DNA from: Deltaproteobacteria bacterium
GTDB taxonomy: Bacteria > Desulfobacterota > DSM-4660 > Desulfatiglandales > HGW-15
Direction of reading: 5' to 3'
Length of the DNA: 8,952 bases
Assembly: GCA_030671095.1 (NCBI GenBank)
Contig: DAOVAK010000077.1
Location: forward strand, 1 to 8,952
Shown: in pieces, positions 3,036 to 8,952 of the stretch
Numbering within the stretch: the first letter of the stretch is position 1
How the letters are laid out: every line of letters begins with the position of its first letter
Program-made: the position numbers and the translations under genes
Notes under the pieces: model-generated
What the model was told of the DNA's origin: nothing
Database searches by the model: none
What the model saw: the letters and a program-made list of their open reading frames with translations, nothing else

Positions 3036-3124
3036 CACCCCCACCCCGCCCTCCCCCTCGAGGGGGAGGGTTAGGCCTGCCCGCCATCGCGAGCCGCTCA
3101 GGCGAGGCGGGCGGGGTGGGGGTG
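3036..3124. repeat. Nested GC-rich palindromic element in the [2Fe-2S]/Mo subunit spacer
   Basis: The outer arms are perfect 16-bp reverse complements (3036-3051 and 3109-3124). Inside them, 3049-3070 is a perfect 22-bp palindrome centred on CTCGAG, and 3075-3115 is a second palindromic unit with arms GCCCGCC (3079-3085) and GGCGGGC (3106-3112). The 3075-3115 unit recurs inverted at 4484-4523 inside the downstream gene. The rest of the spacer (2947-3035 and 3125-3165) shows nothing recognisable. No T tract directly follows the arms, so a terminator role is not supported, though the structure could stabilise or attenuate the transcript. Confidence 0.85.
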
Positions 3125-3174: not shown

Positions 3175-5604
3175 ATGACTGAATACAGTTTCATTGGAAG
3201 TGAAACGCCGAGGCCTGATGCGCCGGATAAAGTTGCGGGCAAGGCCGTATATATCCATGACCTTGTAAGGCCTGGCATGCTATTTGGCAAGATCAAATTC
3301 AGTGAATATGCACATGCCAGAATAAGGCAAGTGGATACGTCGAAGGCTGAGAAGCTGCCTGGCGTTCGAGCCGTCATTACGGGCTACAACACCCCTGAAA
3401 TCAGGATCGGATTCATCAGAGATAACTTTGCCTTAAAGAGGGACAAGGTGAGGCAGTTCCGCGATGAGGTGGCCGCGGTGGCTGCTACAGATCCGGAGAT
3501 TGCTGAAGAAGCCATAGAACTCATTAAGGTGGAGTATGAAGAACTCCCCGCAGTGTTTGATCCGGAAGAGGCCCTGCAGGAAGGCGCTCTCCTTATACAT
3601 GAACAGGACCCGAGAGGACGGCCCAAAGAGGACAACCTGGTTCCAGTCCCTTGGAAATTTGTGGCGGGCGATGTGGAAAAGGCCAAACAGGAGGCGACAG
3701 TCATTGCGGAAGATTCCTTTCAAACCCCACTCATACAGCAGTCATGCCTGGGCACTTCGGGGTGCATCGCAGAGTTTGATCTACAGAACAATCTGCTCAT
3801 CCACACAAAGACACAGATCCCCTTTTTGGCACAGAATGATTTCAATCGGGCCCTTGCGGCCATGGGACTGAGAGGGAAAAACACAAGGGTCATTGTTCCG
3901 ACGCTAGGAGGTTCTTTTGGGACGGGACTTGATACTCACGGGTATGAGTATATTGCCATCCTTTTGGCCTTCGAGACCGGCAGGCCGGTTAAGATAGTTC
4001 TAAGCCGTGAAGAGGAATTCACTGCCCTGTCGCCCCGACAATCCACGAAGACTTATATTGCTCAGGGATGTGACAAGGAAGGTAAACTTACCTTTCGAGA
4101 AGTGAGAATGATCCTTGACAACGGGGCTTACACCTCCTGGGGTGCCACGACGCCAAGCGTGATGATGCTTCCTGTATCCTCGCTTTACAGGGTCCCCAAT
4201 GTGTTTTACGAGACCAAGATCGTATATACCAACAACACCTACTGCCAGGCCATGAGGGGATATGGGAATCCGCAGGCGACTTGGCCCATAGAGAGCAATA
4301 TCGACCAGCTTGCCGAGGCAGCCGGTATGGATCCTTTTGAGTTCAGAATGCTGAACAGCAACATCCCGAATGATTTGACCCCCATGGGGCTTGAGATCAC
4401 GACGTGTGGGTTGAAGGAATGTTTGGAGGGAGTCGCAGAAAAGCTCGACTGGAAAGAGAAGTGGGGAAAGGGTAGGAAAGAGGCCCGCCCGCCTCACCTG
4501 AGCGCTCTCGAAGGCGGGCAGGCACGAGGTGTGGGAATGGCTTGCCTTTTTCATGTAGGGGGTTCGGGCCGCGTCTACCGTTCGGATGGAACAGGCATAA
4601 TCATGAAACTAGATGATTTCGGGAATGTATCAGTCATCACCGGTGGCGTGGAAATGGGGCAGGGATTCAATGCAGCGCTTACAATCGCTTCTGCTGAAGC
4701 GCTGGGAGTGACGCCAGATAAGGTCACAATATTTTCTGGGGACACGGCGACCTGCCCCTGGGATGTGGGGACACATGCCAGCCGGGGAATTTTTACGTCC
4801 GGAAATGCCGCCATCCTGGCAGCTCAGAAGGCGAGAGAAAAGATATTTCAGCTGGCCGCGGAGCACTTTATGCCTCGGGTACACTTCAATCTCAAAAGGC
4901 GAGAAAAGAAAGATCCCGATTTTGAGATCCCTGACCTGAATTTTGAGAGGATCTGCGATCCATCGGAGTTTGACATGAGGGAGAATATCGTCTTCATGAA
5001 AGAGGAGCCTCATAACCCTCTGCTGCAACTCGGGTTGGATGAAATATTGAGAGAGGCCCATTACAAGGAACAAGGGACCATGATCATCACCGAGGCCTTT
5101 TATGACCCTTGCAACCAGATGATCGACGCTAAGACCTGTAGGGGTAATATGTCCGCCACCTACATCTTTGGGACGCAGGGAGCGGAAGTGGCGGTGGATT
5201 TAGAGACAGGAAAGGTGAAGGTTTTGCAAGTTGTGGCGGCCCACGATGTGGGGAGGGTCATAAGCCAGCAGACCATAAAGGGTCAGATTTATGGTGGGGT
5301 GGTCATGGGCTTAGGATATGCCCTTTGCGAAGAATATAAGACGGACAAGGGAAAGAATCTAAATCCTAATTTCTTGGACTATAAGATATTTTCAGCATCG
5401 GACATGGACTTTCCCGTTCACGTGAAATGCATTGAGACTGACGACATAGAAGGACCTTTTGGTGCAAAGGGTGTGGGAGAGCCCGGTCTTGTCCCTACAG
5501 CGCCGGCCATCGCGAATGCCATATATGATGCCATAGGGGTAAGGATCAAGGACTTACCCATCACACCGGAAAAGGTTCTTGCTGCACTAAAGGCGAAAGA
5601 GTAA
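3175..5604 (+). CDS. Molybdopterin-binding large subunit of XDH-family Mo enzyme (module 1), HCR-alpha-like
   Basis: This catalytic subunit should hold the Mo-pterin cofactor. It has 809 residues: an a/b hammerhead domain (about 10-130), then the two MoCo-binding domains. Cofactor motifs are GGSFGTG (245-251, in place of the usual GGGFGGK), AMRGYGNPQ (359-367, Arg361), EMGQG (493-497) and THASRGIF (533-540). GVGEPG contains Glu769, the position of the catalytic base of the family. The region GNMSATYIFGTQGAEVAVDLETG resembles the HCR alpha branch. There is no CODH-type CSFR loop, so CO oxidation is unlikely. Two stretches are longer than in close relatives: about 566-598 (charged, perhaps a subfamily trait) and 437-450, which is translated from a palindromic repeat. 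With its FAD partner lacking the extra [4Fe-4S] site, it may work as a hydroxylase/dehydrogenase or as a reductase with another donor. Substrate is unknown; family assignment is firm. Confidence 0.95.
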   Translation: MTEYSFIGSETPRPDAPDKVAGKAVYIHDLVRPGMLFGKIKFSEYAHARIRQVDTSKAEKLPGVRAVITGYNTPEIRIGFIRDNFALKRDKVRQFRDEVAAVAATDPEIAEEAIELIKVEYEELPAVFDPEEALQEGALLIHEQDPRGRPKEDNLVPVPWKFVAGDVEKAKQEATVIAEDSFQTPLIQQSCLGTSGCIAEFDLQNNLLIHTKTQIPFLAQNDFNRALAAMGLRGKNTRVIVPTLGGSFGTGLDTHGYEYIAILLAFETGRPVKIVLSREEEFTALSPRQSTKTYIAQGCDKEGKLTFREVRMILDNGAYTSWGATTPSVMMLPVSSLYRVPNVFYETKIVYTNNTYCQAMRGYGNPQATWPIESNIDQLAEAAGMDPFEFRMLNSNIPNDLTPMGLEITTCGLKECLEGVAEKLDWKEKWGKGRKEARPPHLSALEGGQARGVGMACLFHVGGSGRVYRSDGTGIIMKLDDFGNVSVITGGVEMGQGFNAALTIASAEALGVTPDKVTIFSGDTATCPWDVGTHASRGIFTSGNAAILAAQKAREKIFQLAAEHFMPRVHFNLKRREKKDPDFEIPDLNFERICDPSEFDMRENIVFMKEEPHNPLLQLGLDEILREAHYKEQGTMIITEAFYDPCNQMIDAKTCRGNMSATYIFGTQGAEVAVDLETGKVKVLQVVAAHDVGRVISQQTIKGQIYGGVVMGLGYALCEEYKTDKGKNLNPNFLDYKIFSASDMDFPVHVKCIETDDIEGPFGAKGVGEPGLVPTAPAIANAIYDAIGVRIKDLPITPEKVLAALKAKE
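4483..4524. repeat. Palindromic repeat copy inserted in frame within the Mo-subunit gene
   Basis: Bases 4484-4523, read on the minus strand, match the spacer unit 3075-3115 at 37 of 41 aligned positions (three mismatches, one 1-nt gap), with similarity stopping sharply at both ends. The codons 4483-4524 encode 14 residues (437-450, ARPPHLSALEGGQA). The paralogous Mo subunit in this window reads KKKYGKLPPW then RGIGI, where this one reads KEKWGKGRKE, the 14 residues, then RGVGM. The extra block is therefore exactly the repeat, rounded to whole codons. It lies in the link before the second MoCo domain, probably a surface loop. Confidence 0.85.
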
Positions 5605-7365: not shown

Positions 7366-8952
7366 GTGAGCAAGGAGTCCTCTCTAATCGGCAAAAGAGT
7401 ACCCAGGGTCGATTCCCTGTCTAGAGTCACTGGCGAAGTACAATTCTCCGGCGACCTCAAGCTTCCGAGGATGCTTGTGGGCAAGGTCAAGCGAAGTCCA
7501 TTGGCTCACGCGCGTATCCTTCACGTAGATACATCAAAGGCGGAAAAACTCAGGGGCGTAAAGGCCGTTGTGTCGGGCCAGGATACGGCGGGGGTGAAGT
7601 GGGGCGTTTTTCGTTATACCCAGGACATGGAACTGTTGCCCAAGGACAAGGTGCGGTATTTCGGTGATGAGATTGCAGCGGTCGCTGCTGTGGATGAAGA
7701 TACCGCCATAGAGGCCCTGGATCTGATTTCAATAGATCTGGAAGAGCTCCCGGCCGTGTATGATCCCTTTGAAGCCATGGCATCAGAAGGCCCTCTCATC
7801 CATGACGAATTCCCGAACAACATAAACATCCATGTGGAAATCGACGTGGGGGACATTGAGAAGGGATTTAAAGACGCCTATCTGGTAAGAGAAGACACCT
7901 TTACTGCGGCTGAGGACAACTACTTCCAGGGGGAGCCTTTTGCGGTCACTGCACGATTTGATGATGCAGGCAACCTGGAGGTCTGGACGCCCAATGCCGG
8001 ACCTCACATGAAGTCTAAACCTCTCGCCAACCTCCTCTCCATGCCCCTTCACAAGGTCAGGGTCAGGAAGATCGCCATAGGTGGTGCCTTCGGGGGTCGA
8101 TCAGAGATATCACCTGGGGATTTTATATGTGCTCTTTTGGCACGGAAGTCCGGCCGGCCCGTTAAGATCATATACACCAGGGAAGAAAACTCAGTCAGCG
8201 TCCGAATGGGCCATGCCCTGATCACCACAATCAAGACAGGGGTGGATCGGAAAGGGCGTGTTCTGGCAAGAGATATTACGTGCTACATGGATGGCGGGGC
8301 CTATTCCTCCACCGGCCCCATTGCCACCTCTGTCCCCTTCCTCTGCATGGAACAGGCCTACCGCATGGATAATGTGCGTTACAACGGCTACCGAATCTTT
8401 ACCAATAAAACGCCTCGGGGCATGATTCGAATGCATGGGCGGTCCTTTGCCTGCGGTATCGACCTCCAGCTGGACATGCTGGGGCAGGAGCTGGGAATTG
8501 ACCCTCTAACCATGAGGCTTGTGAATGGGAGAAAGGCTGGAGAATATACACCCACAGGGAGCTATGTTCCCTCCTGTGGACTCACGGAATGTATTGAGAA
8601 GGCAGCAGAGAAGGCTGGATGGAAGAAGAAATACGGTAAACTGCCGCCGTGGCGAGGCATTGGTATTGGGATCAATTCGGTACAGACCGGGTTCCCACTC
8701 GGGATCAGGGGGGGATCTCAGGCATTCATCAAATTTAACGAGGACGGAGGGGTGACACTAAACTCGGGGGTCGTAGACAACGGTCAGGGAAATGACAACA
8801 TGCTTGTGCAGGTGGTGGCAGAGGAGCTGGGATTGGAAATGGAGGATGTCACCCTGATTACCGCAGACACTGAGGTTACTGCCAATGATCCTGGGTCCTA
8901 CTCCATGGTTTCCACCTTTGTAGGGGGGCAAGCAGCCCAACTGGCGGCCATT
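7366..8952 (+). CDS. hcrA: 4-hydroxybenzoyl-CoA reductase-type molybdopterin alpha subunit (3' end cut by window)
   Basis: This is the catalytic Mo-pterin subunit partnered with the HcrB/HcrC-like proteins just upstream. The frame is open for 529 codons to the window edge. Compared with the 809-residue paralogue, roughly 230-280 residues are missing, including the GVGE segment with the catalytic glutamate. The hammerhead domain (about 10-130) has RVPRVDSLSRVTGEVQFSGD near its start. GGAFGGR is at 239-245, the dioxothiomolybdenum-binding loop of the family, and NGQG at 472-475. Two sites differ from the consensus: the usual FRGFGxPQ is GMIRMHGRS (352-360, Arg355), and the segment usually written GSYSSR is GSYSMVSTF (510-518). 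The His-Gly in the first recalls HCR-type alpha subunits, as far as I remember them. It lacks the 14-residue repeat insertion of the module-1 subunit. The start is GTG with AAGGA 9 nt upstream. Family is firm; HCR function rests largely on the adjacent hcrB. Confidence 0.9.
   Translation, partial: MSKESSLIGKRVPRVDSLSRVTGEVQFSGDLKLPRMLVGKVKRSPLAHARILHVDTSKAEKLRGVKAVVSGQDTAGVKWGVFRYTQDMELLPKDKVRYFGDEIAAVAAVDEDTAIEALDLISIDLEELPAVYDPFEAMASEGPLIHDEFPNNINIHVEIDVGDIEKGFKDAYLVREDTFTAAEDNYFQGEPFAVTARFDDAGNLEVWTPNAGPHMKSKPLANLLSMPLHKVRVRKIAIGGAFGGRSEISPGDFICALLARKSGRPVKIIYTREENSVSVRMGHALITTIKTGVDRKGRVLARDITCYMDGGAYSSTGPIATSVPFLCMEQAYRMDNVRYNGYRIFTNKTPRGMIRMHGRSFACGIDLQLDMLGQELGIDPLTMRLVNGRKAGEYTPTGSYVPSCGLTECIEKAAEKAGWKKKYGKLPPWRGIGIGINSVQTGFPLGIRGGSQAFIKFNEDGGVTLNSGVVDNGQGNDNMLVQVVAEELGLEMEDVTLITADTEVTANDPGSYSMVSTFVGGQAAQLAAI

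Follow-up and report, generated by a model that had tools for sequence, protein, structure and literature searches.

A short dispersed palindrome, very probably inserted in frame, in a molybdoenzyme gene of the Desulfatiglandales

Introduction

How does the gene for a conserved molybdoenzyme come to carry, in frame, a palindrome that also lies in the spacer ahead of it? Palindromes that sit in frame in conserved proteins are known chiefly from Rickettsia and from tagged REPs. We consider such a palindrome in a window of 8,952 nucleotides, by which we mean the whole stretch of DNA that was analyzed. Its host is the gene for a molybdopterin-binding large subunit (positions 3175-5604, plus strand; Pfam PF01315, PF02738, and PF20256). 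The 809-residue product, hereafter the Mo subunit, belongs to the xanthine dehydrogenase/4-hydroxybenzoyl-CoA reductase family, and its nearest PDB chain is 1rm6_A, a 4-hydroxybenzoyl-CoA reductase. A sequence-only reading had proposed either that the palindrome is mobile and enters coding DNA without breaking the frame, as in Rickettsia, or that its two copies are the donor and acceptor of a gene conversion. The first proposal is supported by the checks that follow; the second fared poorly.

Results

The insert and its boundaries

The segment at 3075-3115 in the spacer does recur, inverted, within the gene, with 37 matches over 41 columns that include one gap. The local alignment score is 60, whereas the best of 300 first-order Markov shuffles of the gene reached 32. 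When the bounds of the element are set by the ends of related copies, the gene copy occupies 4484-4522 on the plus strand, or 39 nt. It thus adds 13 codons, rather than the 14 residues (437-450) first proposed. Its ends are those of a 39-nt consensus, and it matches a copy from another locus (L097) at 37 of 39 positions. As a DNA hairpin, it has a predicted energy of −11 kcal/mol (z −2.0). The insert begins at A437, whose codon (4483-4485) consists of G4483 and the two bases with which the element starts; without the insert, G4483 and CA4523-4524 would form the codon GCA. Deleting 4484-4522 converts GAG GCC...CAG GCA CGA to GAG GCA CGA (E-A-R), and the gene so shortened reads K-E-A-R-G-V-G, which is the form of the uninserted orthologues. 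The sharp edges and correct phase noted earlier agree both with orthologues and with other copies of the element. The residues added, ARPPHLSALEGGQ, lie just before a Mo-cofactor domain. AGG occurs at the left flank and again at the 3′ end of the gene copy. The block is indeed missing, as had been stated, from the paralogous molybdopterin-binding subunit gene of the same window (7366-8952, plus strand, open at the window end), which reads KLPPWRGIG with KLPPW joined directly to RGIG.

The spacer copy, ahead of the Mo-subunit gene, is a 40-nt form (3076-3115, minus strand) identical at 40 of 40 positions to copies in other genomes (L118, L134, and L149), and at 43 of 43 to L118 once adjoining bases are included. 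It is enclosed by a larger inverted repeat (3036-3124, arms 3036-3054 and 3106-3124) that folds as DNA at −38.5 kcal/mol (z −5.4). The core of this outer hairpin, with up to two substitutions, was absent from the 465 loci searched, and therefore the spacer site is not demonstrable in an empty state. Other spacers of the window also contain imperfect inverted repeats (arms 1386-1409/1437-1460 and 7207-7230/7289-7312). At Rfam gathering scores the window gave no match, and the window together with four element loci gave only a tRNA, in L118.

A dispersed family

The consensus of the family, CCCGCCCGCCTCGCCTGAGCG-AGAG/CTCG-CGATGGCGGGCAGG, is 39 nt long and folds as a DNA hairpin with a z score of −3.65. 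With up to four substitutions allowed in the first 20 nt and up to three in the last 13, the search yielded 227 distinct copies, of which two are those of the window and three lie on viral contigs from IMG/VR (L271, L272, and L273) that carry the exact gapped pattern. The copies are 39 nt (133), 40 nt (34), or 37 nt (23) long in the main size classes, and 150 of the 227 have a length that is a multiple of three. The commonest 39-mer accounts for 58 occurrences among the first 120 copies. Thus, the family has the size, imperfect palindromy, and high copy number by which REPs are recognized (20-40 bp). The sequence-only reading had called for a search of related genomes and a count inside and outside genes. 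The search returned these many further copies, and they lie in both settings; most are outside recognizable genes and 8 of 227 are inside, a share that is approximate because the loci scanned were mostly chosen by matching the element.

With up to two mismatches allowed, 43 of the 85 genomes examined from the related order contain the core pattern, with 388 matches versus 8 for a reversed control (row sums over the 85 genomes). Seventeen genomes (G008-G024) hold 332 of the 388, and up to 65 core-pattern matches occur in one genome when three mismatches are allowed. A stricter pattern was found in 7 of 395 genomes sampled evenly across the phylum, one of which (G009) belongs to the order. The element probably belongs to one bacterial order, the Desulfatiglandales. 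These copy counts come from related-order genomes, with the host itself represented by the two copies of the window. Plasmids gave no match at an E value of 0.01. A 421-bp query around the insert matched three sites (in G024, G018, and G008) only over 4482-4523, at 93-95% identity, and otherwise matched Mo-subunit homologues. The earlier reading had also named two outcomes that would speak against mobility, namely distant orthologues with the same residues in divergent codons and a lack of further copies in the host; across the related-order genomes, and with the six insert-bearing homologues known by protein only, neither was encountered.

Six copies are 72 nt long and nested. In five of these (L116, L222, L278, L286, and L287), the element is interrupted at CGA^TGG by a second palindrome, of 33 nt; in the sixth (L344), a second palindrome is nested at another place. 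Five of the six reading frames of the element are open, compared with 5.34 in shuffles, so there is no sign of selection for open frames.

Empty sites and target preference

Empty sites, in which the flanks are joined without the element, were found for 42 of 214 testable copies, at identities of at least 80% over at least about 20 nt per side and with no gaps within the 20 columns that span the junction. These 42 copies represent 19 independent contexts, and many share larger repeat families. No bases are duplicated at the empty sites, so the target-site duplication expected of a MITE is missing there. Junctions have a purine on the left and a pyrimidine on the right (R^Y) in 35 of 54 independent contexts, compared with a background of 22.5% (p 3.7e-11). 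The empty sites thus show that a site holds or lacks the element as one discrete unit, that the element leaves no target duplication, and that it prefers R^Y. Several insertion points sit in loops of larger inverted repeats. Targeting of hairpin apices was considered and rejected, as pairing across the junction was no stronger than in controls (86 independent contexts; Wilcoxon p 0.66; 10 of 86 in their own top 5%).

In-frame copies in other genes

As with the Rickettsia elements, copies are found in frame in conserved protein genes. Drawing on the 22 best candidates ranked by open run on both sides, we identified eight copies in seven Pfam-supported genes, with the frame unbroken in all eight. 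Besides the Mo subunit, the genes encode PriA (in G017), CheW (L372, in G009, with two inserts and an unbroken frame), three histidine kinases (L127 in G042, L132 in G048, and L336 in G010), and a penicillin-binding PASTA protein (L339 in G013) that carries a shorter variant.

In PriA, an exact 13-residue gap faces the insert in 12 of the 18 other homologues listed, and the DNA gap relative to G014 is 39 nt. Five of the remaining six are distant, and the sixth, from G008, has extra residues at the site, where a related but decayed element keeps the same orientation (one of 2000 shuffles scored as well). For kinase L127, all 19 other homologues listed show the 13-residue gap. For kinase L132, among 15 other homologues listed, the exact gap appears in L455 and L452, a third (L451, in G045) has at that site a related element into which a second palindrome of about 33 nt is nested at CGA^TGG, the frame being kept, and the rest are variable. 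No clean empty orthologue of L339 was found, and since the linker of this PASTA protein varies among orthologues, L339 is a weaker case. The L336 kinase also contains, in its HATPase loop and receiver domain, the segments NRFRISDLKPNIEQSQSTIHNPKSK and YSKSEIQNLKSQIKK, which resemble translated AT-rich intergenic repeats that were inserted in frame.

Five copies (L307, L268, L192, L212, and L340) lie between open runs of at least 57 codons that do not join in frame. Pfam revealed no gene split in two among these ten runs, a weak result given that nine of the ten had no match; the sole match was a peptidase in the right-hand run of L340. Several copies were left out of the in-gene count: L290 and L115, with no Pfam match on either side; L108, with a whole HAD-type domain on the right only; and L286, L219, L232, L141, L345, and the reverse strand of L372. 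Copies at frame starts (L111, L114, L135, and L194) were treated as preceding the true start. An in-frame copy after a run of N in L110, by eye probably a cysteinyl-tRNA synthetase, was likewise left out. Frame retention by the in-gene copies is weak evidence for selection: the length is divisible by three in 150 of 227 copies, and gene recognition itself favors unbroken frames.

The insert loop

The earlier reading had suggested mapping the loop on a structure model. A first AlphaFold run was poor (mean pLDDT 57.6); a more diverse alignment, of 30 diverse sequences, gave a good model (mean pLDDT 86.9, pTM 0.87). Only two segments of at least three residues fall below a pLDDT of 50. One of them, residues 433-447, includes 11 of the 13 insert residues and is flanked by a helix (413-423) and a strand starting at 449. 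The low pLDDT in an otherwise good model suggests that the insert occupies a flexible, surface-exposed loop.

Recurrence in the Mo subunit

Among the best 120 of 7590 homologues, a related insert occurs in six (P0001, P0002, P0004, P0013, P0016, and P0019). It is absent from the other 114 and from all 30 orthologue loci of the order, three of which (L060-L062) have an unrelated insert there; the orthologue comparison proposed in the sequence-only reading thus bears out an insertion. The same loop holds unrelated in-frame inserts in P0025, P0106, and P0109, as well as in L060-L062, and that of P0109 resembles a low-complexity intergenic repeat.

One reading of this distribution is a single ancestral insertion in the Mo-subunit family, followed by repeated exact loss in most descendants. 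The seven carriers, counting the window, all have the insert at one codon and in one phase and orientation; P0016 and P0019 have a common 16-residue form; the window protein and its sister P0001 both have the insert; and the AGG of the left flank, which recurs at the 3′ end of the element, could permit exact deletion. However, a tree in which the seven carriers form one clade is rejected (AU p 1.9e-5; LG+G4, 32 sequences, insert columns omitted), so that an old insertion requires several exact losses. Insert presence takes at least three changes on a careful tree of 32 sequences and four on a quick tree of 68. Moreover, the insert changes quickly. Between the window protein and P0001, 4 of 13 insert residues differ versus 31 of 796 elsewhere (Fisher p 0.0016), and to P0002 the counts are 5 of 13 versus 114 of 796 (p 0.03). 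Yet P0013, only 81% identical overall, has exactly ARPPRLSARDGGQ, which is what the CTCG form encodes and is also the kinase insert of L127; this would be unexpected if the insertion were old. We regard one old insertion as a serious possibility, though one we would bet against. Because the insert evolves fast while P0013 keeps the exact translation, the comparison favors fresh insertions at one codon in several lineages.

Discussion

Our results indicate that the segment in the Mo-subunit gene is very probably a short, non-autonomous palindrome of a dispersed family, inserted in frame. The main form is 39 nt, or 13 codons, and is open in five of six frames, so a landing in a gene can spare the frame; copies that land in permissive loops would be retained, and the added peptide would be near neutral. 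A single-strand nuclease of the HUH/Y1-like type, acting in trans, would move the element. We also put forward, more tentatively and as slightly less than an even bet, a fuller account: an untagged palindrome of 39 nt and 13 codons moves in trans as a single strand, joins at R^Y without target duplication, and inserts repeatedly at the same codon. By this account, it would have entered the Mo subunit in up to four lineages and PriA in G017, with a decayed counterpart in G008, and a 33-nt palindrome would itself enter it at CGA^TGG to give 72 nt, again a multiple of three. If so, much the same peptide has been added again and again to one loop.

The proposed mover invites comparison with typical REPs, which are moved by RAYT (TnpA-REP) transposases. 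The size, palindromy, copy number, and mainly non-genic placement of the element fit REPs, genes for Y1_Tnp (PF01797, IS200/RAYT-type) are present in 79 of the 85 genomes, and both the missing target duplication and the short preferred target would agree with an HUH mechanism acting on single strands. Against this, of 86 independent contexts one has GTAG and one CGTC at a distance of up to 8 nt from the ends (two for the complement of each), and the consensus contains neither. Linkage to Y1_Tnp was not seen in the loci examined: one of 20 Y1_Tnp regions (L255) has a copy, which we judge to be about background density, and half-sites around 40 Y1_Tnp loci (132/Mb) are not enriched over control loci that include some carriers (191/Mb). 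Many genomes with Y1_Tnp genes, moreover, have no match to the pattern. A typical REP moved in this way is therefore somewhat unlikely. A divergent RAYT is a possible mover, since TnpA-REP, which relies on GTAG in E. coli, depends on it less strictly elsewhere (PMC8266576).

That the spacer and gene copies, which are inverted, 1.4 kb apart, and identical at 36 of 40 positions, are linked by gene conversion or local copying is very improbable. Counted as matches minus length, eleven copies elsewhere are nearer to the gene copy, L097 (37 of 39) among them; the spacer copy is a 40-nt variant that is identical to copies elsewhere and whose copying would shift the frame; and P0001 has a related insert as well. 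A native hypervariable loop or a chance GC-rich likeness, to which the varying loop length in the family could point, is refuted for the Mo-subunit locus and deserves next to no credence, given the matches to the spacer and to L097, shuffles that score far lower, a 421-bp query that found three foreign sites over the insert alone, and orthologues with an empty site.

The element resembles several known systems, and each differs from it in some respect. Neither its core 17-mer nor, among the matches listed for Desulfatiglans, Desulfobacter-, or sulfate-reducing combined with palindromic repeats, any title or abstract opening on such an element turned up in the literature searched. The RPEs of Rickettsia, as described in passages of PMC2229807 and PMC10969869, are dispersed palindromes between and within protein genes, where they are in frame and their product is apparently tolerated; RPE-6 has been noted at the ends of an inversion (PMC2694212), and protein-coding palindromes of Wolbachia are cited in PMC3733652 and PMC2229807. 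Like these, our element is dispersed in and between genes, in frame. Unlike the RPEs, which measure 105-146 bp or about 150 bp and belong to Rickettsia, it is 39 nt long and belongs to Deltaproteobacteria and relatives, a distinction drawn by description, not by sequence.

Intragenic REPs tagged with GTAG or CGTC, reported in the relevant section of PMC3733652 from several bacteria, are 20-40 bp long and mostly intergenic, with some in genes of O. terrae, Thauera, and R. conorii, often genes of DNA synthesis and repair; that section also recalls the in-frame RPEs. "Deltaproteobacteria" and "Desulf-" do not occur in the text of PMC3733652. Our element is likewise a short, mostly intergenic palindrome with some copies in genes, and PriA is comparable to their DNA synthesis and repair genes. 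It differs from tagged REPs in having no GTAG or CGTC tag and no RAYT linkage that we could find.

MITEs such as ERIC, NEMIS, and RUP are described in part of PMC2229807 as non-autonomous, palindromic, and able to fuse in frame with genes, and are given as 70-300 bp long in a passage of PMC3733652. Our element shares the first two properties and can also fuse in frame, whereas it is shorter and has no target-site duplication at empty sites. Overall, what is new is a family that carries no tag and comes from environmental genomes of a different group, for which empty sites are known, a target is preferred, and one codon has apparently been used repeatedly. With it, one can test what agent moves palindromes this small and whether they regularly supply new protein loops.
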